DNA from: Acidimicrobiaceae bacterium
GTDB lineage: Bacteria; Actinomycetota; Acidimicrobiia; Acidimicrobiales; Bog-793
DNA: 41,055 bases
Direction: 5' to 3'
NCBI GenBank assembly: GCA_003136185.1
Contig: PLDN01000131.1
Location: 1 to 41,055, forward strand
Shown here: positions 867 through 32,395 of the stretch, one piece after another
How positions within the stretch are numbered: position 1 is the stretch's first letter
Layout of the letters: each line of letters opens with the position of its first letter
The notes under the pieces: model-generated
Seen by the model: only the letters and a program-made list of their open reading frames with translations
Told to the model about the DNA's origin: nothing
The model's database searches: none
Position numbers and translations under genes: made by a program

Positions 867-2264
867 CTAGGCGGATGCGGGACTGAATCCGCTCGAGGAC
901 CCCATTACCTGGGGCGGTGCGGTCTGGACGGGGTCAGCACCCTCGTTCGAGATCCGCATCAGCAGCGCAATCAGGATGAAGTTGGCGATGAGCGATGAGC
1001 CTCCGGACGACACGAACGGCAATGTGATGCCGGTGAGCGGTAGGAGCCGCGTCACGCCAGCCATGATTATGAAGGCTTGGAAGCCGATCACGACTGTGAG
1101 GCCTAGCGCTGTGAGCTTCGCGAATTCCGATCGCGCCCGCGTGGCGATCCGTATGCCGTACCCGACGATAAGCGTGAACGCGACGACGATCGCCGCTGTG
1201 CCTGCAAGCCCGAGCTCGTTGCCAATGGCGGCGAAGATGAAGTCGCTCTGGGCAACGGGGATCTGAGCTGCTCCGCCGAGCCCGAGACCAGTACCGGTCA
1301 GCCCGCCTCGGCCATCCATGACCTCGGCGATCGCTGGTTGGAAGCCGGGCGTATTGGGCCCCGTGAGGTACTTCCAAGGGTCGAGCCAGACCTCGATGCG
1401 GACGTTCAATTGGCTCAGAATGTGAGCTGCGACGAAGGTGCCGATCGCGAACGCGACAAGCCCGAGCACGATATAGATAAAGCGGCCTGTGGTGACCCAC
1501 AACATGGCGATGAAGAGGATGAACAAGATCAACGAGAAACCGATGTCGCGCTCGAGGATGATCACTCCGACTGAGGCGAACCACGCGATGGCAATGGGCC
1601 CAAAACCTCGCAGGTCGGGAAGCATGCGGTTGCCGACACGGTTGGTGGCCATCGAGAGCAGCTCGCGTTTTTCCACGAAGTAGGACGCGAAGAAGATGAC
1701 GAGGAGAAGCTTCGACAGCTCGATCGGCTGGAACGAGACCGGCCCGACCTTCACCCAGAGGTAGACGCCGGTCAGCTGCACCTCGGGAGAGTCCTTCAAC
1801 CCCGGCATGAGCGGGAGCAGGAGCAGGATGAAGGCACTCGCCGCGAGCAGGTAGCGGTAGCGCTCGAGATCTCTCGATCGACGCACGACGAGCAGCGTGC
1901 CGATATACGCCGCCAGGCCGACCGACGACCAGAGCGCTTGGTAGCCGGCGAGGTGCGGGGAGTTCGGTTCGAAGGGCGCCAGACGTTCCATCATCACGTA
2001 CCCGAGGCCGTCCAACACGAGCACGATCGGCAGGATGACAGGATCGGCTTCGGGGGCGAGGAAGCGGTTGGCGAGGTTGCCGGCGAGGCCCATCGCAACG
2101 AGGATCAGGACGAATGCGCCGAGCCCAGGCGGGAACTTGTTATAAGTTCCGAGATAGGCGAGGACGTCCGCGAAGACGACGACGACGATCCCGACGAGGA
2201 TCAGCCCGAGCTCGCTTCGCCGTCGCGGGTGCGAGCGAGAGGCAGTTTTCGCTATCGCTGCCAC
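867..2264 (-). CDS. rodA: FtsW/RodA/SpoVE family peptidoglycan glycosyltransferase (RodA-like)
   Basis: 465 aa, full length for actinobacterial RodA-type SEDS proteins. About a dozen hydrophobic segments start near residue 20. Diagnostic pieces in order are QPIELSKLLLVIFFASYF (equivalent of QPSE.aK), ILERDIGFSLILF (the ERDxG.S segment carrying the conserved catalytic-region Asp), GLTGTGLGLGG, DFIFAAIGNELGLAG (family DFIFA..gEE.G) and LPFVSSGGSSLIANF near the end. The cytoplasmic tail is Pro/Ser rich. By family it polymerises lipid II glycan strands during elongation together with a class B PBP; no PBP gene is in the window. It starts at GTG 2264 with no Shine-Dalgarno but has TACCGT six bases upstream, so I infer a leaderless mRNA. 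It is divergent from ppk1 (23 bp apart) and convergent with the DUF151 gene. Confidence 0.9.
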   Translation of the reverse strand: MAAIAKTASRSHPRRRSELGLILVGIVVVVFADVLAYLGTYNKFPPGLGAFVLILVAMGLAGNLANRFLAPEADPVILPIVLVLDGLGYVMMERLAPFEPNSPHLAGYQALWSSVGLAAYIGTLLVVRRSRDLERYRYLLAASAFILLLLPLMPGLKDSPEVQLTGVYLWVKVGPVSFQPIELSKLLLVIFFASYFVEKRELLSMATNRVGNRMLPDLRGFGPIAIAWFASVGVIILERDIGFSLILFILFIAMLWVTTGRFIYIVLGLVAFAIGTFVAAHILSQLNVRIEVWLDPWKYLTGPNTPGFQPAIAEVMDGRGGLTGTGLGLGGAAQIPVAQSDFIFAAIGNELGLAGTAAIVVAFTLIVGYGIRIATRARSEFAKLTALGLTVVIGFQAFIIMAGVTRLLPLTGITLPFVSSGGSSLIANFILIALLMRISNEGADPVQTAPPQVMGSSSGFSPASA

Positions 2265-2270
2265 GGGTTC

Positions 2271-2276
2271 ACGGTA
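2271..2276 (-). promoter_or_regulatory. Predicted -10 hexamer of rodA-like gene, leaderless
   Basis: Reading the minus strand, TACCGT is followed by six bases (GAACCC) and then the GTG start at 2264. This TAnnnT-N6-start geometry recurs at ten other genes here. There is no recognisable -35. The hexamer shares its TA/TA base pairs (2275-2276) with the opposing ppk1 hexamer. Confidence 0.6.
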
Positions 2277-2280
2277 GCGT
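2275..2280 (+). promoter_or_regulatory. Predicted -10 hexamer of ppk1, leaderless
   Basis: TAGCGT is followed by seven bases (CTGAGCC) and then the GTG start of ppk1 at 2288. There is no Shine-Dalgarno. It overlaps the divergent rodA hexamer by two bases, so RNA polymerase could probably occupy only one direction at a time. Confidence 0.6.
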
Positions 2281-2287
2281 CTGAGCC

Positions 2288-4444
2288 GTGGAAGCCGATG
2301 TCATAGCGCCGATCGAACAATCGGAAGCTGACCGATCGGCTGTCGCGACGGAGGTCATCGTTGCACCCGACAGCCAGGAGCGTTTCCTGAACAAGGAGCT
2401 GTCTTGGTGCGATTTCGCCCATCGGCTGCTAGATCTGGCGAGCGACGAGTCGGTGCCGTTGCTCGAGCGGGTGAAGTTCATGGCGATCTGCGCGAGCGGG
2501 ATGGACGAGTTCTTCCAGGTGCGGGTCGCCGGATTGAAGGACCAGATCGCAGCGGGAGTCCGCAAACGCTCGTCTGACGGGAAGACGGCTTCGCAGCAGC
2601 TCAAGCTCATCTACGAGCAGGTAACCGCGCTCAGGACCCGCCAGGACCGCATCTTCAATCACGCGCTCATCCCGCAGCTCGCCCACGAGGGTGTCGACGT
2701 TGCGCACTGGTCAGATCTGGACATGAGGGACCGCCAGATCCTGCTCGGCGTGTTCAACCGGGAGATCTTCCCGGTCCTGACGCCGCTCGCCGTTGATCCC
2801 GGCCACCCCTTCCCCTACATCTCCAACCTCTCGCTCAATCTCGGGGTGCTGGTGGCGGACGAGACCACAGGCGAGCATCGTTTCGCCCGGGTGAAAGTCC
2901 CGCCGCTGTTCCCCCGGCTCGTCCAGGTGGGAGAGGCAACTCGGTACGTCGCTCTGGAGGAGGTCATCGCCGAGAACCTCGACCGGCTCTTTCCTCAGAT
3001 GGCCATCGGGGGACACTATGCGTTCCGGGTGACGCGTAATGCCGACCTGGCGCTCGAAGACGGCGAGGCCGACGATCTCCTCGAGGCTGTCGAGGTGGAG
3101 CTGCTGCGGCGGCGGCGCTTTGGCAGGGCAGTCCGCCTCGAGGTCGGTGCCGATATGCCGGCGGAGGTACGAGAGTTGCTACTCGACGAGCTCGAGCTGA
3201 CCTCCGACGACCTCTATGACACGGCGGCTCCCCTTGACTTGAACCAGCTCTGGGAGCTTCACCAGATCGATCGCCCCGACCTCCACGACCCGCCCTGGGT
3301 ACCGATGACCCCGGGCCGCCTCACCTCGGTCGGAGACGAGCCGGTCGACCTCTTCGCGGTTCTGAGGGAGAAGGACTTGCTCGTCCACCACCCCTACGAG
3401 TCGTTCGCGAGCTCCGTCGAGGCGTTCATCAACCAGGCTGCCGACGACCCGAAGGTCCTCGCGATCAAGCAGACGCTGTACCGGACCTCCAACGACACCG
3501 AGATCGTCGATGCGCTCGTTCGGGCGGCAGAGCAGGGAAAGCAGGTCGCCGCCCTCGTGGAGCTGAAAGCACGCTTCGACGAGCAGGCGAACATCTCGTG
3601 GGCCCGCCAGCTCGAGCGGGCGGGTGTGCACGTCGTCTACGGGCTGATGGGGCTGAAGACGCATTCGAAGACGGCGCTCGTCATCCGGCGGGAGGACGAC
3701 ACGCTGCGCGGCTACTGCCATGTTGGGACCGGGAACTACAACTCAGGCACCGCCCGTGTCTACGAGGATCTCGGCCTGCTGTCAGCCGATCCTGAGCTCT
3801 GCGCCGATCTCACGGAGCTCTTCAACTACCTCACCGGCTACGGGCGCCAGTCCCGTCACCGCCGCATCATCACGTCCCCGCACGAGTTGCGCTCCTGGGT
3901 GTTGGAAGAGCTCGAGACCGAGGCACGCCAGGGTTCGCATGGCCGGGCAACCATCAAAGTCAACGGCCTGACCGACCCGGAGGTGATCGACGGTCTCTAC
4001 GCGGCCAGCCGGGCAGGGGCGAAGATCGACTTAGTGGTTCGCGGCCTGTGCAGCTTGAGGCCGGGCATCGCGGGCCTGTCAGAGTCCATCACCGTGAGAT
4101 CGATAGTGGGAAGGTTTCTAGAGCATTCGCGGATCTACCGTTTTGGCGAGCCGGGAAGCGCGCGGGGGGCGAGACACTTCATCGGCTCGGCCGACTTGAT
4201 GGAGCGCAATCTGGACCGCAGGGTGGAGGCGCTTGCTCCCGTTCTCGATCCCGACCTCCAGAGCCGCCTCGACGAGACCTTGGCGCTCAACCTCGCTGAC
4301 GACACGAATACCTGGGAGCTCCAACCCGACGGCTCGTGGTACCGGATACCTTCGCTGCACGGTGTCAGCACGCAACGACAGCTGCAGGAGCTGGCGCTCG
4401 ACCGTGCTCGGAAGCGGCGTACCACCACCGAAACCCACCTCTAG
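2288..4444 (+). CDS. ppk1: Polyphosphate kinase 1
   Basis: 718 aa, normal length for PPK1, which reversibly transfers the gamma phosphate of ATP onto polyphosphate. The N-terminal domain begins RFLNKELSWCDFAHRLLDLA (family FlnrElSWl.FN.RVL), followed by MDEFFQVRVAGLK. The catalytic phospholipase-D-like half contains IKQTLYRTSNDTEIVDALV, ELKARFDEQANI, YGLMGLKTHSKTALVIRRE with the phospho-accepting His (about residue 459), the HVGTGNYNSGTARVYEDLG segment and the second His in FLEHSRIYRFG. GTG 2288 is the only start with the predicted promoter directly before it. It sits 46 bp upstream of a Ppx/GppA gene, so synthesis and breakdown of polyphosphate are encoded together. Confidence 0.97.
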   Translation: MEADVIAPIEQSEADRSAVATEVIVAPDSQERFLNKELSWCDFAHRLLDLASDESVPLLERVKFMAICASGMDEFFQVRVAGLKDQIAAGVRKRSSDGKTASQQLKLIYEQVTALRTRQDRIFNHALIPQLAHEGVDVAHWSDLDMRDRQILLGVFNREIFPVLTPLAVDPGHPFPYISNLSLNLGVLVADETTGEHRFARVKVPPLFPRLVQVGEATRYVALEEVIAENLDRLFPQMAIGGHYAFRVTRNADLALEDGEADDLLEAVEVELLRRRRFGRAVRLEVGADMPAEVRELLLDELELTSDDLYDTAAPLDLNQLWELHQIDRPDLHDPPWVPMTPGRLTSVGDEPVDLFAVLREKDLLVHHPYESFASSVEAFINQAADDPKVLAIKQTLYRTSNDTEIVDALVRAAEQGKQVAALVELKARFDEQANISWARQLERAGVHVVYGLMGLKTHSKTALVIRREDDTLRGYCHVGTGNYNSGTARVYEDLGLLSADPELCADLTELFNYLTGYGRQSRHRRIITSPHELRSWVLEELETEARQGSHGRATIKVNGLTDPEVIDGLYAASRAGAKIDLVVRGLCSLRPGIAGLSESITVRSIVGRFLEHSRIYRFGEPGSARGARHFIGSADLMERNLDRRVEALAPVLDPDLQSRLDETLALNLADDTNTWELQPDGSWYRIPSLHGVSTQRQLQELALDRARKRRTTTETHL

Positions 4445-4490
4445 AGCCACGGGCTGATGAAGAAGAGATGACTACGAAAGTGAGCGCACG

Positions 4491-6077
4491 ATGAGGGTCG
4501 GTGCGCTTGATCTTGGTAGCAACTCCTTTCATCTCCTGATCGTCGAGACGCGTCCCGACGGAAGTTTTGTCCCGCTCGTGCGCGAGAAGGAGATGTTGCG
4601 CCTGGGCGACGTCGTCGGACGCGAGGGCTACCTCACCGAGGAGGCAGTCGAGCGCGCGATCGAGGTCGTCAGGCGGTTCCGAACCATTGCCGAGACCCAC
4701 GACGTCGAGGAGCTGGTCGCGTACGGGACGGCCGCGCTGCGTGAGGCCTCGAACGGTCCGGAGGTGACCGATCGCATCGAAGCTGAGACGGGAGTGCGGG
4801 TGCAGGTGGTGAACGGGATCCGTGAGGCACAGCTCGTCTTCGAGGCCGTCAGGGCGAGCGTGTTGATGGATCCGGCTCCGGTTCTCTGCGCCGACCTCGG
4901 TGGGGGATCTCTCGAGCTTGCCGTCGGCGACCGTCACGGGCTGCGTTATGCCACGAGCCTTCACCTCGGCGTAGGCCGCCTGACCGCCGAGCTCGTCCGG
5001 TCGGACCCGCCGACCGCAAAGGATCGCATTCGTCTGCGCAGGCGCGTCGACGCAGAGTTGAGCGATGTGCTTGCGGACCTGCTCGCGCGCGGACCTCAGC
5101 AGCTGATCGGCTCGTCTGGAACATTCTGTGCCCTCGCACGCGCATCGACGGCCTTGCGCGACGGCAGCGTGCCGATGTCGGTGAACCAGCTGACGGTGTC
5201 AGCTGCGGACCTACGTGCCTTCGGCGATCTCGTCTTTTCGCTCCCGTCGGAGGACCGCGCCCGTCTCGCGGGCGTGGATGCCCGTCGGGCCGAGTTGCTA
5301 CCTGCAGGTGTCGTCGTGGTCGAGGCACTCTTGGAATCGACGGGCCTCGACGCGCTGACGACCTCGGAGTGGGCGCTTCGCGAGGGCATGGTGCTCCGGG
5401 TGCTGAACAAGCACGACCCGGCGGACTTCAGCAGCGATCCCCGCACGATCAGGCGGGCCTCGGTGCTGTCACTCTGCCGCCGCTCGAACTGGCGCGAGCG
5501 CCACGCAAGCTCGGTCGCGCGGATGGCACTCGAGTTGTTCGATGCGACCGTAGTGCTCCATCGCGGCTCCGAGGAGGACCGCGAGCTTCTCGAGCTGGCC
5601 GCTCAACTGCACGACATCGGCGAACACGTGAGTCGTGACGGGCACGGCCGGCACACCGCTTACCTGATCGAGCATGGCGGCTTGCGGGGCTTCTCCCCAG
5701 AAGAGGTTCGCATGCTCGCTTGCATCGGGAGATATCACACCCGCGGCAAGCCAAGAGAGAGCTTCGGCTCCTTCGAAGCGCTCGCGCCAGACGACCGCGC
5801 ACGGGTGCTCTCACTCCTCGCCCTTTTGCGGATCGCGGACGGGCTCGACGTCAGTCACGCTGACATCATCGGACCTATCAGCGTCACGATTGAGGCCGAT
5901 CGGGCAGTGATCACTGCCCCGGCGAGGGGTGAGGCAGAGCTCGAACGGTGGATGTTCCAGCGCAAGCGGACGTTGTTCGAAGACGTCTTCGGCATCCCGG
6001 CGGTGCTCGAGCTCTCCCTCGCGGGTCACGACGAGTTCGAGCCAGACGCGCTAGCAGAGACGGCCGGACATGGCTGA
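4491..6077 (+). CDS. ppx: Exopolyphosphatase / guanosine pentaphosphatase (Ppx/GppA) with C-terminal HD domain
   Basis: 528 aa. The N-terminal ASKHA-fold phosphatase begins at once: VGALDLGSNSFHLLIVE (phosphate 1 loop), YGTAALREASNG, then DLGGGSLELAVGD (phosphate 2 loop) and IGSSGTFCALAR. The C-terminal third is an HD-type domain: AQLHDIGEHVSRDGHGRHTAYLIEH (HD at about 374-375), CIGRYHTRG and LLRIADGLD supply the H, HD, H and D ligands. By family it hydrolyses terminal phosphates of polyphosphate and/or pppGpp; sequence alone does not decide which. ATG 4491 fits the conserved N-terminus exactly. It follows ppk1 by 46 bp and its last 8 bases overlap the next gene. Confidence 0.93.
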   Translation: MRVGALDLGSNSFHLLIVETRPDGSFVPLVREKEMLRLGDVVGREGYLTEEAVERAIEVVRRFRTIAETHDVEELVAYGTAALREASNGPEVTDRIEAETGVRVQVVNGIREAQLVFEAVRASVLMDPAPVLCADLGGGSLELAVGDRHGLRYATSLHLGVGRLTAELVRSDPPTAKDRIRLRRRVDAELSDVLADLLARGPQQLIGSSGTFCALARASTALRDGSVPMSVNQLTVSAADLRAFGDLVFSLPSEDRARLAGVDARRAELLPAGVVVVEALLESTGLDALTTSEWALREGMVLRVLNKHDPADFSSDPRTIRRASVLSLCRRSNWRERHASSVARMALELFDATVVLHRGSEEDRELLELAAQLHDIGEHVSRDGHGRHTAYLIEHGGLRGFSPEEVRMLACIGRYHTRGKPRESFGSFEALAPDDRARVLSLLALLRIADGLDVSHADIIGPISVTIEADRAVITAPARGEAELERWMFQRKRTLFEDVFGIPAVLELSLAGHDEFEPDALAETAGHG

Positions 6078-6909
6078 GCTGCTCATCCGGACGAGCCTCG
6101 ACTCCTACGAAGTGCCCGCCGGCGATCCGGGATGGTTCGGCCCGGACTCGATCGCCTGGCAGGTGCACGCCGACTTGGCGTCGATGCTCGTTGGCGGCAT
6201 GTCCGCCTTGCTTCTTCAGACCCTGCACCCGCTCGTAATGAAGGGCGTCGCCGATCATTCGAACTACGGTACGGATCCCTTCGGGCGGCTACAGCGAACG
6301 GCCGAGTTCATCGCAGGCACCACTTACGGAGGCGACGAGCTCGCGTCGGACCTCGTGCGCCACGTGCGCTCGATTCATGCGAGGGTGAGGGGTGTGGCGG
6401 ACGCAAACCGCCCCTATCGGGCGACCGAGCCGGCTCTGCTCACCTATGTTCACGTGACCGAGGTGTGGAGCTTCCTCCGCGCTCACCAGCGCTACTCGGG
6501 CAGGCCATTGCTGACGAGCGAGAAGAATCAGTACCTGGCGGAGATGTCGGTCGTCGCCCGTCGCTTGGGAGCGCGCGACGTCCCGACGACGACCGCAGAG
6601 GTGCAGGAGTACTTGCGGCTGGTGCGACCCGTTTGTGAGATGACGGCGGAGGCGCGCGAGACGGTGGGTTTCTTGATGACGTCGCCAGTCGGGGAGAGTG
6701 TGCTCCGCCGCTCGGCGTACGCGACGATCTGCGAGGCGGCAATCGATCTGCTGCCGATGTGGGCGCGGCACCGGCTCGGCTTGTACCGGCCCTCGCCGGT
6801 GCGCCTCGCGCTCGTGCGGCCCGCCGCGACTGTTCTCACGTCTGCGTTGCGTTTCGTCGTCGGTGGCTCGCCGGTCCGAGATGCCGCCGAGAGGCGCGCG
6901 GCGAGCTGA
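6070..6909 (+). CDS. Oxygenase MpaB family protein (DUF2236)
   Basis: 279 aa. Recognised from the family pattern: a WFGPDSIAWQVHAD start, LLLQTLHPLVMKGVADHS (conserved His), DPFGRLQRTAEFIAGTTYGG, HARVRGVADANRPYRATEP and TYVHVTEVWSFLRAHQRY. Members include heme-dependent oxygenases such as fungal MpaB and the latex-clearing protein Lcp; most bacterial relatives have no known substrate. It is predicted helical and soluble. The ATG lies inside the end of ppx (8-bp overlap, different frame), so it is translationally coupled to the polyphosphate genes, though no functional link is known to me. It ends 8 bp before the convergent SRPBCC gene. Confidence 0.85.
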   Translation: MAELLIRTSLDSYEVPAGDPGWFGPDSIAWQVHADLASMLVGGMSALLLQTLHPLVMKGVADHSNYGTDPFGRLQRTAEFIAGTTYGGDELASDLVRHVRSIHARVRGVADANRPYRATEPALLTYVHVTEVWSFLRAHQRYSGRPLLTSEKNQYLAEMSVVARRLGARDVPTTTAEVQEYLRLVRPVCEMTAEARETVGFLMTSPVGESVLRRSAYATICEAAIDLLPMWARHRLGLYRPSPVRLALVRPAATVLTSALRFVVGGSPVRDAAERRAAS

Positions 6910-6917
6910 GGCGAGGC

Positions 6918-7304
6918 TTAACCCTCGAGCAGCGCCTTCAGCCCCTTGAGGCCGCTCTTGGTGGCAGGCCCGACAATCCCTGCCAAGCCGTCGGCGACAT
7001 CGGTCCCGTAGACGACGCGGCTCGCACCCTCGCCGTCCTCGAGGACGTCGATCGTGCCGAGGTGCGCTGCATCGGGCAGCCCGTCGACGATCGAGTACTG
7101 GAAGCGACGCAACTCGGCGTCGTTCGTGACGATCTTCTCGGCGAGACTGATCCCAGCCGTCAGCGTGATCGTGCGTGTGCCTTCGCCGACCTCGACGGCG
7201 TCGATGCCATCGAACCATTCGGTGATCCGAGAGGAGTCGCCCACGACAGCGAAGACCTCGTCTGGGTGTCGAGCGATCCTGATGTCGTAGCGCACCGATG
7301 CCAT
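6918..7304 (-). CDS. SRPBCC family (polyketide cyclase/dehydrase-like, START-fold) protein
   Basis: 128 aa, a typical small single-domain SRPBCC protein. The fold is suggested by the opening beta strand MASVRYDIRIARHPDEVFAVVGD, the SRITEWFDGIDAVEV segment (family hxxhxxWfpgv..ve), alternating beta strands with a TRTITL turn, and the C-terminal helix SGLKGLKALLEG. Such proteins bind hydrophobic ligands; no ligand can be assigned. The ATG at 7304 is preceded by GAAAGGACACCC, a good Shine-Dalgarno (AAGGA), so unlike many genes here it is leadered. It lies 100 bp downstream of the agmatinase gene on the same strand. Confidence 0.8.
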   Translation of the reverse strand: MASVRYDIRIARHPDEVFAVVGDSSRITEWFDGIDAVEVGEGTRTITLTAGISLAEKIVTNDAELRRFQYSIVDGLPDAAHLGTIDVLEDGEGASRVVYGTDVADGLAGIVGPATKSGLKGLKALLEG

Positions 7305-7404
7305 GGGTGTCCTTTCACGGAGTTATTGGGCGAGAGCGCAACTTAGTACCTGCGAGGAGCGTCCGGACCGGCGAGGACAAAGGCACGCGCGGCCCGTCGA
7401 GACG

Positions 7405-8478
7405 TCAGCGCGCCAGCGGGTTAACGAGGTCCGGAGCAGCCCCCCGGCGAACGGCCAGACCGGCCAGCATCTCGAGCACAGCCCGGTGTGCGTTGTTGAT
7501 CGTCAGCTCGGCCCAGTCGTAGGCCGGGGCTACCTCGACGACGTCCATCGCGACGAGCGGAGTCTCGATCGCCAGCTTGCGCACCGCCCTCAGCAGATCA
7601 GCCGGCGCGAGGCCTCCGGGCTCCGGTGTGCCTGTCCCGGGAGCAAAGCCAGGATCGAGCACATCGATGTCTAGCGACAGGTACACGCTGTCTGTTCCTT
7701 CGAGAGCTTCGGCGACGGCGTCCTCCATGACCGCCGGCAGACCGCGCTCCCAGACCTCTTGCATGAGGTGCCACCTCATGTTCTGGTCCCGCATCCACTC
7801 GAAGGTCTCCTTCGGTGGCCAGTACCCCCTCAGTCCGATTTGAACGAAGTTCGCACCTTTCACGGCGCCAGACTCGATCAGGCGCCGCATCGGCGTGCCA
7901 TGACTGGCGAGGTTGCCCTCGACGGTGTCGGCAGTATCCGCGTGTGCATCGAAGTGCACGATGCCGATCCGCCCCCAGCCGTGGGTCTCGGCGACCGCGG
8001 TCGCCGCCGGCCAGGTGATCGAGTGGTCGCCGCCGAGTATCACGGGGAAGATGCCGCGGCTCGCGACCTCGCCCACGCGGTGACGGATGTTCGCATGGCT
8101 CTGCTCGACGAGCCCGTGTGGACAGAGTGCGTCCCCGTAATCGACGACCTCCAGGCTCTCGAAGATCTCGACGCCGAGGTCGAGGTGATAGGTCCCCGGC
8201 CCGTAGGCGAGTGCCCGGAGCGCGCGGGGCCCGAAGCGAGCCCCGGGTCGGTTCGTCGTCGAGTCGTCCCAGGGCGCGCCTACGACAGCGACGTCCGGCT
8301 GCCACCGGTCGAGGTCCTCCGGCTCGGTCAAAAGGGGGCACTGGGCGAAGGTGGCAGGTCCCGTATGGGACGGTCCCGAGAGCTGCACCGCCATTCCTGG
8401 CGGCAGATGGCGGTCAGGGGCGGGGCGGTCAGCGGCAGGTTGGGCGGGCTGGGCGGGTTGTGAGCGATCGTCGGCCAC
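7405..8478 (-). CDS. speB: Agmatinase / ureohydrolase family protein
   Basis: 357 aa. All binuclear Mn-binding signatures of the arginase/agmatinase fold are present: LGGDHSITWPAA, VHFDAHADTADTVEG, GNLASHGTPMRRL and YLSLDIDVLDPGFAPGTGTPEPGG. The enzyme hydrolyses a guanidino group to release urea; agmatine, guanidinobutyrate and similar substrates share these motifs, so the substrate is unproven. The first ~25 residues are a Pro/Ala/Gln-rich disordered tail, giving a longer protein than the usual ~320 aa. Translation starts at GTG 8478; the upstream hexamer TAACAA sits at the leaderless distance but lacks the final T. It is 45 bp downstream of the flippase-like gene on the same strand. Confidence 0.9.
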   Translation of the reverse strand: MADDRSQPAQPAQPAADRPAPDRHLPPGMAVQLSGPSHTGPATFAQCPLLTEPEDLDRWQPDVAVVGAPWDDSTTNRPGARFGPRALRALAYGPGTYHLDLGVEIFESLEVVDYGDALCPHGLVEQSHANIRHRVGEVASRGIFPVILGGDHSITWPAATAVAETHGWGRIGIVHFDAHADTADTVEGNLASHGTPMRRLIESGAVKGANFVQIGLRGYWPPKETFEWMRDQNMRWHLMQEVWERGLPAVMEDAVAEALEGTDSVYLSLDIDVLDPGFAPGTGTPEPGGLAPADLLRAVRKLAIETPLVAMDVVEVAPAYDWAELTINNAHRAVLEMLAGLAVRRGAAPDLVNPLAR

Positions 8479-8523
8479 AGGGCCGTTGTTACCACAAGGT
8501 GATCGGGCGAACCGACCTCGAGC

Positions 8524-9729
8524 TCAGGGCGTGTCGTTCGGCCGGTGTTCGAACGGCGCGTGGACGATCCGGTTCTCCTCGAAGCTCTTGTCGCCGATCG
8601 GCGCCCGCGCTTCTTTGGTCAGCGTTTGCAGCATGCGCCGCTGCTCTCGAACCGAGGCGCCTCGTTGGGCACGCAACGAGACGTAACAGCCCGCTCCAAC
8701 AGGGATGGGAAGCCAGAAGTTGTAAAGGCGCCAGGCGAGCACAGCGAGGGTGGCGATGGCGGCGGGGACCCCGAAGCCACGCAACACGAGGCCAGTCGCC
8801 CACTCGACCGGCCCGAGGCCACCAGGGGTGAGCGGGATCGCTGCTAGGACGTTGCCGACGCCGTAGGCGATCAGGAGAGTGATGGGATCGAGGACGTGGT
8901 GGAAGGCCGTCAGGCAGATCCAGAGGCAGCCGGCGTCAAGGAGCCAGTTCGCCACCGCCCAGGAGATGGCGCGCAGCAATAGCGGGCGGTCGCTCCCGAG
9001 TGTTCGCAACCTCGTGCCGACACGCATGACTAGGCGCTCCATCCCCTCCTCAGTGATGAAAGGGAGGTGGCGAGCAACAGTGCGCAGGACCCGCGTCGCC
9101 CAGGCCTGGCCTTTGGTGAACGCGAGGATCAGAGCAGCCGCGAGCGAGAGCAAGACGGTCCCGACGGCCGCGACCTCGATGTAGATGTCTACCGACTCGT
9201 GATGTGAGTGACCCGAGACGAGGGCGATCGGGATCGAGATGATGAGGGAGACCCACAAGATGGCGTTCAGCACGACCGCCGATCCGATTCCCTGAGTGGC
9301 TGCCGCAAAACCGACGTCCGCGCCGGCCACGCCGTTCGAAGTCATCAACCGGTAGCCGAGTCCGGTACCACCCGCCGTCCCACCCGGGAGGATGTGGCTG
9401 ACGCCTAAGGCCGACATGTTTATCCGGAGGACCTTGGAGAAACTGAGCGCCTTCGGTGGCAGCACGACGATCGTCAGGCGGGCGTAGGCGAGTTGGGCGG
9501 CGACCTCGAGTCCGAGGCCGAGCAACAAGAGCGCGATGTTGACGTGTTCGATTGCCTGCAACGACTTACGGGCATTGACGAGTTGTGGAATTACGAGGTA
9601 CTCGAGGACGAGTATGAGGATGAAGACGGTGAGTCCGTGCCGGAGCAATTTCGGGACGCGAAAGCGGCGGCGCGGCATGCTGGCCTGGTCGGTCGCCGCG
9701 TCAGCGGCAAGCTGGGGCTCGTCGACCAT
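8524..9729 (-). CDS. Lysylphosphatidylglycerol synthase transmembrane / flippase-like domain protein (UPF0104)
   Basis: 401 aa from ATG 9729. A cytoplasmic start (MPRRRFRVPKLLRHG) leads into about eight hydrophobic helices. Family hallmarks are RINMSALGVSHILPGGTAGGTG (UPF0104/AglD-like: n.a.....PgraGe..R), ISWAVANWLLDAGCLW and VGNVLAAIPLTPGGLGPVEW (conserved p.tPGGlG..E). By family these are integral membrane proteins related to the MprF flippase half or to polyprenyl-lipid transport. The ORF track runs 152 residues further upstream to 10185, but that part is antisense to the AI-2E gene, has no membrane character and a very arginine/acid-rich shadow composition, so I reject it. ATG 9678 is an alternative start. 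Divergent from the AI-2E gene by 87 bp. Confidence 0.85.
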   Translation of the reverse strand: MVDEPQLAADAATDQASMPRRRFRVPKLLRHGLTVFILILVLEYLVIPQLVNARKSLQAIEHVNIALLLLGLGLEVAAQLAYARLTIVVLPPKALSFSKVLRINMSALGVSHILPGGTAGGTGLGYRLMTSNGVAGADVGFAAATQGIGSAVVLNAILWVSLIISIPIALVSGHSHHESVDIYIEVAAVGTVLLSLAAALILAFTKGQAWATRVLRTVARHLPFITEEGMERLVMRVGTRLRTLGSDRPLLLRAISWAVANWLLDAGCLWICLTAFHHVLDPITLLIAYGVGNVLAAIPLTPGGLGPVEWATGLVLRGFGVPAAIATLAVLAWRLYNFWLPIPVGAGCYVSLRAQRGASVREQRRMLQTLTKEARAPIGDKSFEENRIVHAPFEHRPNDTP

Positions 9730-9816
9730 CTCTCCATGGTTGCAGGAGGCGGCGCCGAACGCGGGGATCACCTTGGGGATCACCCCTTGAGCGCCCGCTT
9801 CGAGTTGACTGGAGCC

Positions 9817-11061
9817 ATGACCGAGGCGTTCCGCACGCGGCGTCCAGGCGGCGAAGACCGGTCGGTGCCGCCGCTTGCGCGCGATCCTGAGCGGGCCAGC
9901 CGGCGAGAGTTCCAGCGCCGAGTCACGAGAGCGGCGCTCACCGTGGACGCCATCGTCGTGCTCACGCTCTTGACGGCGATAGTGGCGTGGAAGCTCCGAA
10001 CCGTCATCCTGCTCGTCGCCATCTCTTTGTTCATGACTCTTCTGCTGCATCCGCTCGTGAGCTTCCTCGAACGGCGTGACATGCGGCGCAGCATTGCCAC
10101 TGCAGTCGTGTTCGTCGTCGGGATTGGTGTCGCCTCGACGCTGGCGCTCGTAATTCTCACGCCCCTCGTCCATTCGGCCGAGCACTTGTCGAACGAGCTA
10201 CCCGTGATCATCCGCCAGGCCCAGCACGGTAAGGGCACGATCGGCAAGTGGGCAACGAAGTTCCACCTCCTCAAGTACGTCACCGCCAAGAACGGCGGTG
10301 CGCAGAGCCTCATCACGAAGCTCGGCAAGCCTGCGATCAGCATCGGCAAAGGGGTCCTTTCCGGCGTGTTCAGCGTTGTGACGATCTTCTTCTTGACCTT
10401 CTTCCTCCTCATCCACGCGCCCCGCATCTACCGGGCCATCCTCGAGTGGATGCAACCCGAGCGCGCGGCGAGGGTGAGGGTCGTCGTGAGCGACGTGGAG
10501 CGGTCCGTCGTTGGCTACATCGCCGGCGACTTCGCAACGTCGCTCATCGCCGGAACCGTCATCTGGCTCACCCTGTTGATCACGGGCGTGCCTTACCCGC
10601 TCGTGATCGGGATCTGGGTGGCGATCGTCGACTTCCTCCCGCTCGTCGGCGGCCTGCTGGCAGGGGTGCCGACGGTGATCCTCGCGACCCTTCATTCGGT
10701 CCCCGCTGGGATCGCGACCCTCATCGTGTTCCTCGTGTACCAGGGGATCGAGAATCACTTGCTGTACCCGATCATCATGAGCCGAACGGTTCGGCTGAAC
10801 TCTCTCTGGGTGTTGATCTCGATTCTCATCGGCGCCGAGCTAGGAGACTTCGTCGGCTCGGTCTTCGGCGGTTTCGTGGGAGCGCTCCTCGCGGTGCCGG
10901 CGGGATCGGCGGTGCAGGTCGTCGCGCGGGATCTTTGGCACCACCGGACCGAGACGGCGGAGCCGCCGACCGATGTGGCTCGCCCGCCGAGGCGGGCGAT
11001 ACCCGCCGACGCGCCCGAGGGCTCGGCGGGAGCTTCCGGGACGGCGGCGGGCGCTGAGTAG
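9817..11061 (+). CDS. AI-2E family transporter
   Basis: 414 aa from ATG 9817, which has GGAG four bases upstream; the ORF track extends another 108 residues but that part is hydrophilic, not conserved and opposite the flippase gene. Roughly eight membrane segments start at LTVDAIVVLTLLTAIVAWKL. Family signatures are LLLHPLVSFLERR, VDFLPLVGGLLAGVPTVILA, QGIENHLLYPIIMSRTVRLN and ISILIGAELGDFVGSVFGGFVGALLAVP. The family (PF01594) includes E. coli TqsA and Na+/H+ antiporters, so the name does not imply AI-2 transport. Its TAG stop is used as the first three bases of the predicted promoter of the following mannosyltransferase gene. Confidence 0.9.
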   Translation: MTEAFRTRRPGGEDRSVPPLARDPERASRREFQRRVTRAALTVDAIVVLTLLTAIVAWKLRTVILLVAISLFMTLLLHPLVSFLERRDMRRSIATAVVFVVGIGVASTLALVILTPLVHSAEHLSNELPVIIRQAQHGKGTIGKWATKFHLLKYVTAKNGGAQSLITKLGKPAISIGKGVLSGVFSVVTIFFLTFFLLIHAPRIYRAILEWMQPERAARVRVVVSDVERSVVGYIAGDFATSLIAGTVIWLTLLITGVPYPLVIGIWVAIVDFLPLVGGLLAGVPTVILATLHSVPAGIATLIVFLVYQGIENHLLYPIIMSRTVRLNSLWVLISILIGAELGDFVGSVFGGFVGALLAVPAGSAVQVVARDLWHHRTETAEPPTDVARPPRRAIPADAPEGSAGASGTAAGAE

Positions 11062-11064
11062 TGT
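11059..11064 (+). promoter_or_regulatory. Predicted -10 hexamer of polyprenol-P-mannose synthase gene, overlapping a stop codon
   Basis: TAGTGT, whose TAG is the stop codon of the AI-2E gene, is followed by seven bases and then GTG 11072. There is no Shine-Dalgarno for the downstream gene. Same architecture as at maoC and trpC. Confidence 0.55.
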
Positions 11065-11071
11065 TCCCCCG

Positions 11072-11821
11072 GTGCGAGTGCTCGTCGTCCTGCCGACATA
11101 CAACGAGGCCGAGAACATCCCGAACATGCTCGAGCGCGTTCGGGCGGCCTTGCCGGACGCACAGGTTCTCGTCGTCGACGACAACAGCCCTGATCAGACC
11201 GCTGATCTAGCGGAGAAGTCGGCTGAGCGCCTTGGTCAGATCGAGGTCCTGCGCCGCCCGGGCAAGTCCGGTCTCGGCAGTGCGTACCGAGACGGCTTCC
11301 GGTGGGGCCTCGAGCGTGGCTACGAGGTGCTCGTCGAGATGGACTCGGACTTCTCGCACGATCCCGACGCGCTACCAGCACTGGTCGCCCCGCAGGCGCA
11401 AGGGGTCGACGTGGTGATCGGCTCGCGCTACGTGCCCGGGGGGTCCATCCCCGACTGGAGCCTCTCACGGCGGTTGATCTCTCGAGGTGGCAACCTTTTT
11501 GCAGACTGGATGCTCGGGCTTCGCGTAAAGGATTCGACTGCCGGCTTTCGTGCCTATTCCGCCGAGATCCTCGGGCGAATCAATCTCGATTCCATACGAG
11601 CTGACAGCTATGGGTTCCAGGTCGAGATGACCTACCGGACGCTGCAGGCGGGCGCGACGCTTGAGGAGGTACCTATTCGTTTCGTCGATCGCACACTCGG
11701 GACGTCGAAGATGTCCACCTACACCGTCGTCGAGGCTTTCGGGCTCGTGACGTGGTGGGGACTCCTTCGCGTGGGCCACAAGATGGCCGGGCTGACCAAG
11801 CGTGGCGCACGAGCCGTCTGA
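11072..11821 (+). CDS. Polyprenol monophosphomannose synthase (dolichol-phosphate mannosyltransferase-like GT2)
   Basis: 249 aa from GTG 11072. The track ORF extends 33 Arg/Pro-rich residues upstream inside the AI-2E gene, but the fold starts exactly at VRVLVVLPTYNEAENIPNML. GT2 features: VVDDNSPDQTADLA, PGKSGLGSAYRDGFRWGL, the metal-binding MDSDFSHDPDALP, VIGSRYVPGG, DSTAGFRAYSAE and VPIRFVDRTLGTSKM. It transfers mannose from GDP-mannose to polyprenyl phosphate, supplying mannose for cell-envelope glycans or protein O-mannosylation, like mycobacterial Ppm1 domain 2. There is no C-terminal membrane anchor, as expected for soluble/peripheral bacterial forms. The 3' end overlaps the next gene by 20 bp. 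Confidence 0.92.
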   Translation: MRVLVVLPTYNEAENIPNMLERVRAALPDAQVLVVDDNSPDQTADLAEKSAERLGQIEVLRRPGKSGLGSAYRDGFRWGLERGYEVLVEMDSDFSHDPDALPALVAPQAQGVDVVIGSRYVPGGSIPDWSLSRRLISRGGNLFADWMLGLRVKDSTAGFRAYSAEILGRINLDSIRADSYGFQVEMTYRTLQAGATLEEVPIRFVDRTLGTSKMSTYTVVEAFGLVTWWGLLRVGHKMAGLTKRGARAV

Positions 11822-12698: not shown

Positions 12699-12721
12699 GC
12701 GGCGGGCGCCCAGTCGCGAGG

Positions 12722-14703: not shown

Positions 14704-14710
14704 GCCGGCG

Positions 14711-14716
14711 AGCCTA
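14711..14716 (-). promoter_or_regulatory. Predicted -10 hexamer of menG-menF operon, leaderless
   Basis: On the minus strand TAGGCT is followed by CGCCGGC (seven bases) and GTG 14703. It lies between the hisC stop (14734-14736) and menG, separating the histidine and menaquinone transcription units. Confidence 0.6.
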
Positions 14717-14733
14717 ACGAGGTCGACCGCGAG

Positions 14734-18279: not shown

Positions 18280-18286
18280 CGGTCTG

Positions 18287-20322: not shown

Positions 20323-20325
20323 CGT
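20320..20325 (+). promoter_or_regulatory. Predicted -10 hexamer of maoC gene, overlapping rlmN stop codon
   Basis: TAGCGT, whose TAG is the rlmN stop, is followed by CGCTGTC (seven bases) and ATG 20333. The maoC-hisBHAF genes downstream could all be read from here. Confidence 0.55.
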
Positions 20326-20332
20326 CGCTGTC

Positions 20333-20791
20333 ATGGCCACCCACTTCGACGGAATCGAGTCCATCAAGGCCAAGGTCGGTGAGCACCTCGGCTACAGCGA
20401 CTGGAACGAAGTCACTCAAGACCAGGTCAACCTCTTCGCCGACGCGACGGGGGACCACCAATGGATCCATGTCGACCCGGAACGTGCGACCAAGGAGAGC
20501 CCGTTCGGCGGCCCGATAGCGCACGGGTACCTGACGCTCTCGCTCGCCCCGGTCCTGCTCAGCCAGGTCTACTCGGTGAGTGGCGTGTCGATGGGGGTCA
20601 ACTACGGCCTCAACAAGGTGCGCTTCCCGGCGCCGGTCCCTGTCGGCAGCCGCTTGCGCCTCGGCGCCTCCCTCCTGTCGATCGAGGAGATTCCGGGCGG
20701 AGCTCAGATCGTGATGTCGATGACGTTCGAGGTGGAGGGACAGGCGAAGCCGTCGTGCGTGGCCGAGGCGGTTTACCGCTTCTACGTGTGA
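20333..20791 (+). CDS. MaoC family (NodN-like) dehydratase/hydratase
   Basis: 152 aa from ATG 20333, one hot-dog domain. The hydratase-2 motif is present: NLFADATGDHQWIHVDPERATKESPFGGPIAHGYLTLSL, with the catalytic Asp and His in GDHQWIHVD. It probably hydrates/dehydrates an enoyl-thioester, but the substrate is unknown; the closest pattern is the NodN/MaoC single-domain type. It sits directly upstream of hisB (10 bp), which is an odd neighbour for histidine synthesis. The ORF track's extra 14 residues overlap rlmN and are unlikely. Confidence 0.88.
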   Translation: MATHFDGIESIKAKVGEHLGYSDWNEVTQDQVNLFADATGDHQWIHVDPERATKESPFGGPIAHGYLTLSLAPVLLSQVYSVSGVSMGVNYGLNKVRFPAPVPVGSRLRLGASLLSIEEIPGGAQIVMSMTFEVEGQAKPSCVAEAVYRFYV

Positions 20792-23730: not shown

Positions 23731-23736
23731 TACCGT
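23731..23736 (+). promoter_or_regulatory. Predicted -10 hexamer of GroES-like gene, leaderless
   Basis: TACCGT is followed by TCTTCG (six bases) and GTG 23743. It supports GTG 23743 rather than the ORF-track start at 23716. Likely also serves hisI-trpE downstream. Confidence 0.55.
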
Positions 23737-23742
23737 TCTTCG

Positions 23743-24087
23743 GTGCCCAATGAGACGCCCACCGCGGCCGCCGGTAAGAAACAACCGGTCACCATGCTCA
23801 ACGACCGCGTCCTCGTGAGCATGCCGAAATCAGAAGGCGAGCGACGCTCGCGTGCCGGGATCCTCATTCCGGCCACCGCGCAGGTCGCTCGGCGCCTCTC
23901 CTGGGCGGAGGTGGCTGCGGTCGGGCCGCACGTCCGGACGATCCACGCTGGCGACACCGTCTTGTTCAACCCCGAGGAGAGCTTCGAGGTCGATGTGAAG
24001 GGCGAGGATTTTCTGATTCTGCGCGAGCGAGACGTCCACGCGGTGGCTTCCGAACGAATCGACGGTGGCACAGGGTTGTACCTGTGA
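23743..24087 (+). CDS. GroES-like (Cpn10) co-chaperone family protein
   Basis: 114 aa from GTG 23743. Cpn10 fold pattern: [30 protein letters not shown] (beta strand then mobile loop with Ile-Leu-Ile, where GroES has GGIxLP), [49 protein letters not shown]. It lacks the usual short start (the ~20-residue N-terminal tail is extra) and has a C-terminal tail GGTGLYL. No groEL is adjacent. It overlaps hisI by four bases (GTGA), so it sits inside the histidine cluster. Whether it pairs with GroEL or does something else is unknown. Confidence 0.8.
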
Positions 24088-26913: not shown

Positions 26914-27834
26914 GTGGCGATAATCCTTGCTCTCGCTGCTGCGCTGTGCAACGCGCTCGCCACCATCTTCGAGCGTCTCGGGGTCCAGACGGCGCCGGCC
27001 GATTCGGCACTCAGCTGGAAGCTGATGGCCCATGTCTTGCGGCGTCCGATCTGGTTCCTCGGTCTCGGGGCGATGATCGGCGCATTCTTATTCCAGGCAG
27101 CCGCGCTCGACGAAGGCGGGCTGACCGAAGTCCAGCCGCTGCTCGTCACCGAGCTGTTGTTCCTCGTGATAATCCTGCGGGTCTGGTTCGGACTGCCGCT
27201 CGGGTGGCGCGAGTCGGCCGGCTGCCTATGCGTCGTGACCGGTCTCGGTGTGTTCCTTGCAGTCAGCAACCAGGGTGGTGGCTTGGCGCTGCCCGCCGCC
27301 ACCGACTGGGCGATGGTGATCGGCGCCTGCGTGGTCGCGATCGGATTCTCCGTCAACCTCGCACGCAGAGGATCGCGTGCCTGGAGATCGTCCTGGTTCG
27401 GTGTTGCTGCAGGCGTCGCGTTCGCGCTTTCCGCCTCGTTCATAAAGGCCGCGACCACCTTGGCCTCCCGCGGCGGCATCGCGTTCATGTTCGGCCACTT
27501 CGAGCCTTACGGCATCGCTGTCGCCGGGGGCCTCGGTCTCTTTCTCACCCAGAACGCCTTTCACGCGGGCCCCATCACTGCATCCCAGGCCACTCTGCTC
27601 ATCGTGGACCCGATCGCCAGCATTGTGATCGGCGTGGGGGTCTTCGGAGACAACCTGCGGGGTGGCGTCGGCATTCTCGCCGTCGATGCGCTCGCGCTCG
27701 CTGTGATGTCGTTCGGGTTGTTCGTGCTCTGCCACTCGCCACTCATCGTGAACACGACGGCGCGCGATCAACTGTCGCACCCGATGCGCGAGCGAGGAGC
27801 CGTCGCTTCCGGAGCGCCTGCCACCCCACAGTAG
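26914..27834 (+). CDS. DMT (EamA-like) family transporter
   Basis: 306 aa from GTG 26914, preceded by AGGGGAG overlapping the ygfZ stop region. About nine to ten hydrophobic segments; the two-repeat drug/metabolite-transporter layout is visible (MAIILALAAALCNALATIFERLG ... LFLVIILRVWF ... GLFLTQNAFHAGPITASQATLLIVDPIASIVIGVGVFGDNL, the last resembling NIPA/EamA C-terminal repeats). The C-terminal 30 residues are hydrophilic. Substrate unknown; position between trpE and trpC hints at an aromatic amino acid or metabolite exporter, but that is inference. Its TAG stop is the start of the trpC promoter hexamer. Confidence 0.85.
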   Translation: MAIILALAAALCNALATIFERLGVQTAPADSALSWKLMAHVLRRPIWFLGLGAMIGAFLFQAAALDEGGLTEVQPLLVTELLFLVIILRVWFGLPLGWRESAGCLCVVTGLGVFLAVSNQGGGLALPAATDWAMVIGACVVAIGFSVNLARRGSRAWRSSWFGVAAGVAFALSASFIKAATTLASRGGIAFMFGHFEPYGIAVAGGLGLFLTQNAFHAGPITASQATLLIVDPIASIVIGVGVFGDNLRGGVGILAVDALALAVMSFGLFVLCHSPLIVNTTARDQLSHPMRERGAVASGAPATPQ

Positions 27835-27837
27835 GCT
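27832..27837 (+). promoter_or_regulatory. Predicted -10 hexamer of trpC operon, overlapping DMT stop codon
   Basis: TAGGCT, whose TAG is the DMT stop, is followed by CCAGGA (six bases) and ATG 27844. It suggests trpCFBA has its own transcript as well as any read-through from trpE. Confidence 0.6.
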
Positions 27838-27843
27838 CCAGGA

Positions 27844-28647
27844 ATGGCGACATATCTCGACGGGATCGTCGCGTGGCATCGTGCCCGCGCGGCCGCCGAC
27901 GAGCGCGACCTCACGCAGTTGGGCGATGCGGCGCGGATGGCCCGAGGCAACGATGGCGGTCGGTCCTTCGAGGCAGCGATTCGCAGCGCACCGGGCGTGG
28001 CGGTCATCGCCGAGATCAAGCGGCGGTCGCCTTCGAAAGGTGATATCGCTGAGGCGCTTGACGCCTCGCTGACGGCGCGCGAGTACGAGGCAGGTGGCGC
28101 GGCCTGTCTGTCAGTGCTGACTGACGCCCCGCACTTCGGCGGCTCGGTTGCCGACCTCGTTGCGGCGCGCGGAGCGGTCTCGTTGCCGGTCCTGCGGAAG
28201 GACTTCACGGTGTCGGCAGCAGACATCTACGACGCCGCCATCATGGGAGCCGACGCGGTGTTGCTAATAGTCGCTGCCCTGAGCGACGACGAGCTCTCAA
28301 GGTTCGTGACCGAGACGGCGGCGCTCGGCCTGGCAGCTCTGGTCGAGGTACACGACGAGGCTGAGGTCAGCCGCGCCCTTCGGGCCGGCGCCGGCCTCAT
28401 CGGTGTCAACCAGCGGGACTTGCGGACCTTCGAGCTCGACGCCGAGCGGGCGGTGCGCGTCGGCGCTGTCCTGCCGCCCGAAGTGCTCAGTGTCGCCGAG
28501 TCCGGCATAGGAGAGGTCGGACAGATCTCCCGCCTGGCCGAGGCGGGTTTCGATGGCGTGCTGATCGGCGAGTCGCTCTTGCGCGCGCCGGATCGAGTCG
28601 CTGCGCTGCGGGCGCTCACGGCCTTGAGCGGATCGGCAGCCTCCTGA
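27844..28647 (+). CDS. trpC: Indole-3-glycerol phosphate synthase
   Basis: 267 aa, monofunctional. (beta/alpha)8 barrel signatures: VIAEIKRRSPSKGDI (catalytic Lys, Ser-Pro-Ser), LSVLTDAPHFGGS, LPVLRKDFTV, GADAVLLIVAAL, ALVEVHDEAEVSRAL, LIGVNQRDLRTF and SVAESGIGE. Closes the indole ring from CdRP. The ATG at 27844 has an AGGA directly before it, but the TAGGCT hexamer at the leaderless position is also present. The stop TGA shares a base with the trpF ATG (TGATG). Confidence 0.95.
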   Translation: MATYLDGIVAWHRARAAADERDLTQLGDAARMARGNDGGRSFEAAIRSAPGVAVIAEIKRRSPSKGDIAEALDASLTAREYEAGGAACLSVLTDAPHFGGSVADLVAARGAVSLPVLRKDFTVSAADIYDAAIMGADAVLLIVAALSDDELSRFVTETAALGLAALVEVHDEAEVSRALRAGAGLIGVNQRDLRTFELDAERAVRVGAVLPPEVLSVAESGIGEVGQISRLAEAGFDGVLIGESLLRAPDRVAALRALTALSGSAAS

Positions 28648-30526: not shown

Positions 30527-31320
30527 GCGCCCATGAGCCGGGGCGCCTCGAGGCGCGCCTTCGCGAGCGGCGCGATGCAGGTCGGAAGCTTCTCGTTCCC
30601 TACGTCACCGGCGGACTCGGCGACGATTGGGTCCCGGCCCTCGAGGCGATCGCTGCAGCAGGGGCGGACGCGATAGAGATCGGTCTACCGTTTTCCGACC
30701 CGATGATGGACGGCCCGACCATCCAAGAAGCTTCCGTCCGTGCCCTTGCCGCAGGCGCGACACCGCAGACGATTCTCGGGGAACTCGTCGAGGCCGATGC
30801 GGGTGGGGTGCCGCTCGTCGTCATGACGTATTACAACCTCGTTGCCCGCATGGGACATCGCCGCATGGCGAGTCTGCTCGTGGAGTCGGGGGTGTCGGGA
30901 GCGATACTGCCCGATCTGCCGATCGATGAGATCGACCCTTGGAAAACAGAGGCCGACGCGACCGGCATCGAGACGGTATTGCTCGCCGCACCGACGACGC
31001 CCGATGCGCGGTTGAGGGCGATAGTGGGGAAGGCGGAGGGTTTCTTGTATGCCGTCGGCGTGATGGGGGTGACGGGGGAGCGCTCGTCGCTCGCCGCCAG
31101 TGCCACCGCCATCGCTGCTCGGTGCAAGGCGATAACCGATCTGCCCGTGCTCGTCGGTATCGGGATAACCACTCCTGACCAAGCCGCCGAGGTCTGTCAG
31201 GTGGCCGACGGTGTCGTTATCGGGTCAGTAGTAGTGCGGCGCCTGCTCGACGGCGAAGGTCCCGATGGAGTGGCGAAACTCGTAGCGAGCTTTCGGGAAG
31301 CGCTCGACTCGCACTCCTAA
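30523..31320 (+). CDS. trpA: Tryptophan synthase alpha chain
   Basis: 265 aa from GTG 30523 (GTGA overlap with trpB). Barrel motifs: [43 protein letters not shown] with the catalytic Glu (about 52) and Asp (about 63), [47 protein letters not shown] and [11 protein letters not shown]. Cleaves indole-3-glycerol phosphate. Last gene of trpCFBA. Only 52 bp separate it from argC, filled by the arginine operator; I see no terminator hairpin between them. Confidence 0.95.
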
Positions 31321-31338
31321 GCCGCCTGGCCGTATCTA

Positions 31339-31372
31339 TGCATGAGTATGCAGATCTATGTATACTCATGCC
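31339..31372 (+). promoter_or_regulatory. Two tandem ARG-box-like operators over the leaderless argC promoter
   Basis: Box 1 TGCAT-GAGT-ATGCA (31339-31352) is a perfect 5-4-5 palindrome; box 2 TGTAT-ACTC-ATGCC (31359-31372) has the same geometry with one mismatch per half. Their starts are 20 bp apart, as for adjacent sites bound by an ArgR hexamer. In addition GCATGAGTAT (31340-31349) and ATACTCATGC (31362-31371) form a perfect 10-bp inverted repeat. The -10 hexamer TATACT (31361-31366) lies inside box 2 and is followed by six bases (CATGCC) and ATG 31373. Known ARG boxes of actinobacteria also use TGCAT half-sites. The AT-rich block stands out sharply from the GC-rich surroundings. argR is in the same cluster, so arginine-dependent autorepression is inferred. 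Confidence 0.85.
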
Positions 31373-32395
31373 ATGAAGGCGGGTGTCATCGGAGCCACCG
31401 GGTACCTCGGTGCCGAACTTCTAAGGCTCCTTGCCGACCATCCATCGATCGACGTATCGGTGGTTCAGGCCTCCTCGACGGCCGGCTCGACTATCGCTGA
31501 GCAGTACCCGGCGCTCGCGCGTGCCTATCGGGATCTCGTCATCGACGACGTGGATCCGAATGCGCTCCGCGGCCTCGACGTGGTCTTCGTTGCCGTGCCG
31601 TCTGGGACATCGCAGGAAATCGTCGCTGGCCTGCAACCGTCGGCTCGCCTCGTAGTGGACCTCGGTGCCGATTTTCGCCTGAAGGACGCCGCTTCATACC
31701 CGGAGTGGTACGGCTTCGAGCACGGACAACCCCACCTCCTCGCGCGGGCTGTCTACGGCCTTCCGGAGCTGAACCGCGACGCCCTGCTCGGTGCCAGCCT
31801 GATAGCAGCCCCCGGCTGTTACCCGACCGCGGCCTGCCTGGCGCTGGCTCCGTTCATCTTGAACGGATACGTCGAGCCGACGGGGATCGTGGTCGATGCA
31901 GCGAGTGGGACCTCGGGGGCAGGCAAGGCGCCGGGCGCAGCCATGCACCACCCGTTCGTGAACGAGAGATTCGCTCCCTACGGCGTGCTCACACACCGCC
32001 ACACGCCCGAGATGCAGCAGCTTCTCGGTGCACAGTTGCTGTTCACGCCGCACCTGGCGCCGATGACACGGGGGATCCTGGCCACCTGTTACGCGAGGCC
32101 GGCTGCGAGCGCCGGCATAACCTCCAGCGAGCAGGCGATCGACGTCTTGCGCGAGGCGTACTCGAGTGAGCCGTTCATCAACGTGACTGGGGCGCTCGTC
32201 TCGACCGCTGATGCTTACGGCTCGAACGTCGCCCACCTGACGGCGCGCTACGACGCCCGCACCGGCTGGTTGGTCGTGTTCGCCGCGATCGACAACCTCG
32301 TAAAAGGAGGCTCGGGCCAGGCAATCCAGGCGGCCAACGTCGCTCTCAAGCTTCCAGAGAGCTCCGGCCTCCCGAGGGTTGGGCTGGCGCCATGA
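31373..32395 (+). CDS. argC: N-acetyl-gamma-glutamyl-phosphate reductase
   Basis: 340 aa from ATG 31373 (MKAGVIGATGYLGAELLRLL). The track start at 31358 would put five extra residues inside the operator and promoter, so I reject it. Type 1 ArgC: Rossmann GATGYLGAEL, VVFVAVPSGTSQEIV, VDLGADFRLKD, YGLPELNR, the catalytic Cys about 149 in IAAPGCYPTAACLAL, SGTSGAGKAP, HRHTPEMQQ and FTPHLAPMTRGILATCYA. NADPH-dependent reduction in arginine synthesis. First gene of argCJBDFRGH. Confidence 0.96.
   Translation: MKAGVIGATGYLGAELLRLLADHPSIDVSVVQASSTAGSTIAEQYPALARAYRDLVIDDVDPNALRGLDVVFVAVPSGTSQEIVAGLQPSARLVVDLGADFRLKDAASYPEWYGFEHGQPHLLARAVYGLPELNRDALLGASLIAAPGCYPTAACLALAPFILNGYVEPTGIVVDAASGTSGAGKAPGAAMHHPFVNERFAPYGVLTHRHTPEMQQLLGAQLLFTPHLAPMTRGILATCYARPAASAGITSSEQAIDVLREAYSSEPFINVTGALVSTADAYGSNVAHLTARYDARTGWLVVFAAIDNLVKGGSGQAIQAANVALKLPESSGLPRVGLAP

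Follow-up and report, generated by a model that had tools for sequence, protein, structure and literature searches.

Leaderless genes are a published property of actinobacteria, and finding them in an actinobacterium is ordinary. Zheng et al. (2011; PMC3160421) described TA-led genes in Actinobacteria and Deinococcus-Thermus, in which the hexamer TANNNT precedes the start codon by about 12 bp, and reported over 20% of genes to be leaderless in Actinobacteria; Acidimicrobiia are not mentioned in the text of that study. In M. tuberculosis, 26% of the genes with a primary start site are leaderless, and this class is characterized by a TANNNT -10 element, no -35 motif and a purine start (Cortes et al., 2013; PMC3898074). 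Work with StartLink+ and GeneMarkS-2 likewise names Actinobacteria as rich in leaderless genes, with starts on which predictions often disagree (PMC9581028). Also relevant here are bidirectional promoters with opposed, overlapping -10 elements (Warman et al., 2021, as summarized in PMC10268837 and PMC12825309). According to PMC12825309, 23 bp is one common distance between divergent starts in E. coli bidirectional promoters, behind 18 bp.

The DNA analyzed here (the window) is a whole contig of 41,055 nucleotides (C135) from a genome of 3.81 Mb in 193 contigs that is 90% complete. Its ppk1 has its closest named relatives in Acidimicrobiia-type or "Actinomycetes" MAGs, with at most 75% identity. 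Eleven genes of the window carry TAnnnT 6 or 7 nt before the start codon. They share with the TA-led genes of PMC3160421 the TANNNT distance, the high GC content and the lack of a Shine-Dalgarno sequence: the putative -10 element lies 10-12 nt upstream, and transcription is predicted to start on the purine of an ATG or GTG codon. The present case differs from that study in concerning an uncultured Acidimicrobiia-type MAG and in adding orthologue conservation. The TANNNT -10 element, the missing -35 motif and the purine start are also those of M. tuberculosis (PMC3898074), measured by RNA-seq there and predicted here. The leaderless class of StartLink+/GeneMarkS-2 concerns the same clade, whereas the present starts come from a home-made caller.

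In the part of the literature covered, no dedicated study of leaderless genes in Acidimicrobiia was found. Here, statistics and conservation show the predicted leaderless mode for a little-studied Acidimicrobiia branch. Leaderless expression would then rank among the main modes in this uncultured lineage, where many genes predicted from ORF length probably begin too far upstream; the unit of -10 box and start codon could serve to correct such starts.

Conserved hexamers at eleven start codons of the window

The original prediction listed eleven start codons with their hexamers and spacings, and all eleven are present as described. Gene identities are backed by Pfam and NCBIfam (FtsW/RodA, PPK1, family-2 glycosyltransferase, MenG/UbiE, HisD, Nth, MshD, MaoC domain, Cpn10, TrpC and ArgC). 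Orthologues were collected by tblastn at syntenic loci of same-family genera, and the fractions below give those in which an in-frame ATG or GTG is preceded by TAnnnT at a spacing of 6-8 nt.

On the reverse strand, the FtsW/RodA-family gene (867-2264) starts with GTG at 2264, preceded by the putative -10 element TACCGT at spacing 6 (site 2262-2276; 10/10 family orthologues). Divergent from it on the forward strand, ppk1 (2288-4444) starts with GTG and has TAGCGT at spacing 7 (2275-2290; 11/11 family orthologues). The family 2 glycosyltransferase gene resembling polyprenol-P-mannose synthase (PPM-like), on the forward strand, combines TAGTGT at spacing 7 with a GTG at 11072 (11059-11074; 9/11 family orthologues). 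Three reverse-strand genes follow: menG/ubiE with TAGGCT, spacing 7 and GTG at 14703 (14701-14716; 6/10 orthologues), hisD with TACGCT, spacing 6 and GTG at 17113 (17111-17125; 8/8), and nth with TACGCT, spacing 7 and GTG at 18248 (18246-18261; 9/10). The forward-strand mshD, with TAGGTT at spacing 7 and GTG at 18287 (18274-18289; 10/10), is divergent from nth; 38 nt separate the two, and each has its own -10 box. The remaining forward-strand sites belong to the MaoC-domain gene (TAGCGT, spacing 7, ATG 20333; 20320-20335; 5/7), the Cpn10/GroES-like gene (TACCGT, spacing 6, GTG 23743; 23731-23745; 8/8), trpC (TAGGCT, spacing 6, ATG 27844; 27832-27846; 3/3) and argC (TATACT, spacing 6, ATG 31373; 31361-31375; 1/1).

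Taken together, 80 of the 89 orthologues of the eleven genes have the motif in this position, versus 1 of 117 orthologues in the same test on 18 control genes of the window. In the GroES-like gene, nth and menG, the place of the start codon in the protein sometimes shifts among species, and the motif moves along with it. By sequence comparison, this conservation is strong evidence for a functional role of the hexamers and for the corrected starts. The sites had been claimed to correct several starts of the ORF track, and 6 of the 11 do shorten the mechanical ORF, with orthologues mostly aligning from the shortened start. A codon model that uses no upstream sequence, and is thus blind to the motif, placed its best start at the site start in 10 of 11 genes, a second model with shorter word length in 8 of 11. 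The menG start at 14703 scores 2.3 nats under the motif-blind best start at 14625 and is the least certain among the eleven.

Upstream sequences inspected by eye contained no well-placed Shine-Dalgarno sequence of at least 5 nt in any of the eleven genes; trpC carries AGGA, but abutting the ATG. The operon context is mixed. Four of the genes are divergent firsts (rodA-like, ppk1, nth, mshD), three have their same-strand neighbor more than 40 nt upstream (hisD 442 nt, GroES-like 63 nt, argC 52 nt), and four start 9-30 nt past a same-strand gene (PPM-like 10 nt, menG 30 nt, maoC 10 nt, trpC 9 nt). That most of these genes lead their run, as claimed, is only partly right and was overstated. The conserved predicted leaderless promoters of 11072, 14703, 20333 and 27844 lie at, within the end of, or just past the preceding same-strand gene. 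Because the promoters of PPM-like, menG, maoC and trpC are conserved, these genes are probably transcription units of their own, and the apparent operons at the four positions probably split into separate units. About a quarter of the window's genes are apparently leaderless by this prediction.

A 13-bp inverted repeat, GCATGAGTATGCA/TGTATACTCATGC, at 31340-31371 overlaps the -10 box of argC, and argR is located at 36531-37019, at the end of the cluster. Given these two features, the repeat probably serves as an ArgR operator through which the predicted leaderless argC promoter is repressed directly. The position of the argC hexamer within a likely operator is, at the same time, a point against it as a -10 element.

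Genome-wide profile and alternative readings

A genome-wide count of TAnnnT, proposed with the original prediction as a check, was carried out on 1.75 of the 3.81 Mb with a home-made gene caller, whose 1321 start calls took no account of the motif. At spacings 6, 7, 8 and 9 the motif was found in 79, 48, 25 and 9 genes, compared with about 3 at each other distance. Spacing 6 is thus enriched about 25-fold and spacing 7 about 15-fold. Five comparison motifs (reversed or permuted) were flat or slightly raised, the control motif TnnnAT mildly so at spacing 6 (14 versus about 6). With near-equal alternative starts admitted, 223 of 1321 genes (16.9%) had the motif, versus 20-30 (about 2%) at control distances. 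E. coli sequence run through the same pipeline gave no peak (4 observed versus 5.2 expected).

Sites were most frequent at divergent genes (15.9%), less so where a same-strand gene preceded at a distance of more than 40 nt (8.2%), and least at genes at most 10 nt behind one (6.3%, 18/287); with alternative starts admitted, divergent genes reached 29% and genes at most 10 nt behind 6.6%. Genome-wide, the sites therefore tend to head transcription units, while just 4 of the 11 in the window strictly head a strand run. Shine-Dalgarno sequences of at least 5 nt precede 6.3% of the 127 genes with spacing 6 or 7, which is the background level (6.7%), and 21.7% of the other genes. TTG starts were absent from the 127 genes and present in 83 of the 1194 others (p = 3e-4). 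No -35 signal was found upstream of the spacing-6/7 genes in the 1.75 Mb set, and scanning window positions 1-20000 for the standard two hexamers of sigma-70 yielded nothing above chance. Bumps of the reverse-strand -10 pattern (ANNNTA) at spacings 5, 6, 10 and 11 were about as high as expected from base composition once the forward sites are taken into account, and were set aside.

The same TAnnnT peak was seen in pooled relatives, with 53 of 276 starts at the family loci and 30 of 207 starts in other Acidimicrobiia-type MAGs. Around ppk1 of named Actinomycetes there were 0 sites in 200, a point against the leaderless reading, but a poor and biased comparison in which one gene neighborhood is sampled repeatedly; it was set aside.

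These data are best explained by leaderless transcription that is widespread and starts from a sigma-70-type -10 box, which we consider very probable. The eleven hexamers would be -10 elements of a housekeeping-type sigma factor, with initiation on the codon's first base or within 1-2 nt of it; a last T 6 nt before the codon would put +1 on the first base. The mRNA would begin at the ATG or GTG and lack a 5' leader, so that ribosomes would load directly on the start codon at the 5' end, with no Shine-Dalgarno pairing. Where transcription starts, which sigma factor acts and that translation is leaderless are points we infer here from sequence. The original prediction of a large set of leaderless genes gains support from the genome-wide peak, its dependence on gene class, the lack of Shine-Dalgarno sequences and TTG starts, the conservation and the negative E. 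coli result. The raw, motif-blind count puts the predicted leaderless mode at no less than 9.6% of genes, and its share is probably about 15%.

Might TAnnnT-N6/7-RTG simply be common enough for eleven sites to be picked by eye? Raw counts in the window are barely above shuffles: spacing 6 has 7 matches where shuffles have 4.4, spacing 7 has 9 where they have 4.5, and the total of 16 compares with about 9 expected. The expectation that such matches should be rare was therefore overstated, and we rejected rarity of the raw pattern as an argument. The improbable part is the placement on true starts, not the raw motif frequency: 11 of the 16 matches hit true gene starts (about 41 genes), compared with about 0.2 expected from a genome background of 0.5% per gene. 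Coding-only start prediction gives the same starts, and the genome-wide peak and the orthologue conservation far exceed chance, which refutes this reading and leaves it next to no probability. In Bacteroidota, AT-rich sites act as a non-Shine-Dalgarno ribosome-recognition signal, and TAnnnT at -12 to -7 could be such a signal on leadered mRNAs, without any promoter. The motif does occupy the position of a ribosome binding site, fixed relative to the start codon, and is found at some genes close behind a same-strand gene, the 18 mentioned above. Nevertheless, we regard this as very improbable, since the motif is strongly enriched at divergent over operon-internal genes, the exclusion of TTG is what transcripts initiated on a purine would show, the overlap of opposed copies on a single TA in divergent pairs fits recognition of DNA, and TAnnnT matches the known actinobacterial -10 element (PMC3160421, PMC3898074).

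The promoters could also be real, with most transcripts having leaders of 1-5 nt, or with extra upstream promoters giving rise to leadered forms. In bacteria generally, the distance between -10 element and start varies by 1-2 nt; such variation, and the use of spacings 7, 8 and 9 in addition to 6, speaks for short leaders, whereas the mode at spacing 6 and a start base that is always a purine speak against them. This reading refines the leaderless explanation and is compatible with it; we find it rather unlikely.

Divergent pairs sharing one TA

One detail beyond the published property concerns the divergent space between the FtsW/RodA-family gene and ppk1. Its 23 nt (2265-2287) accommodate two opposed putative -10 boxes with one shared TA at 2275-2276 (junction sequence ACGGTAGCGT), so that two opposed -10 elements overlap in a fixed register, that of 23 bp. 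The same or a very similar junction is present in about ten related genera.

In the 1.75 Mb, 27 combinations had the signature on both genes of a divergent pair. In 7 of the 27, the start codons are 22-25 nt apart, in the shared-TA register, and none are closer; the predicted double-leaderless pairs less than 29 nt apart are all in this register (7/7). Pfam domains were present on both sides in five of the seven pairs, the five that were checked (C135, C4, C59, C120 and C94). These pairs, with 22-24 nt, are located at 2265-2287 of the window and, in G000, at C4:48800-48822, C59:18660-18681, C120:26021-26043 and C94:24667-24690; the products are FtsW-RodA/PPK1, SDR/MDR dehydrogenases, SDR/GNAT, GtrA/acyl-CoA thioesterase and DUF255/SDR. 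A pattern search turned up a further pair, on C129, with Pfam domains on both sides, which is not among the seven because its forward gene was not called. The shared-TA pattern outnumbered its control in the family (87 versus 51), in order members outside the family (136 versus 46, 16 genomes) and in the rest of the phylum (1154 versus 891).

Relative to the bidirectional promoters summarized in PMC10268837 and PMC12825309, the distance between starts would be 24 bp at the ppk1 junction and 23-26 bp in the seven pairs if both genes are leaderless. Unlike in those promoters, both products here are predicted leaderless coding mRNAs, which puts 22-25 nt between the start codons themselves. Since 23 bp is among the common distances already listed for E. 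coli bidirectional promoters (PMC12825309), the shared-TA pairs are a combination of known things; in the part of the literature covered, no paper was found that describes such packing for leaderless gene pairs. We lean slightly towards the view that, in this order, divergent pairs reach a hard packing limit of 22-25 nt between start codons, at which two leaderless genes share the single TA of two opposed -10 boxes, and that this recurring, conserved arrangement forces a choice of direction on the polymerase and fixes both start codons. Such pairs would be compact natural cases of two polymerases competing at one promoter with both transcripts leaderless.

The 18-bp register, reported as the commonest in bacterial bidirectional promoters, is not enriched here. 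With -7T and -11A coinciding (TANNNTA), it showed no enrichment in 39 genomes (family 33 versus 36, order 27 versus 73). The ppk1 junction, which reads ANNNTANNNT, does not have this register, and two matches checked in the own genome were not at gene starts. The search for this register also showed that several members of the order share a near-identical recurring sequence, which starts CACCGGTGGTACC(A/G)TA or is the complement (G005 C140:7666 and C296:1468, G018 C327:1276, G003 C5:835, G031 C77:1997 and G038 C23:15778).
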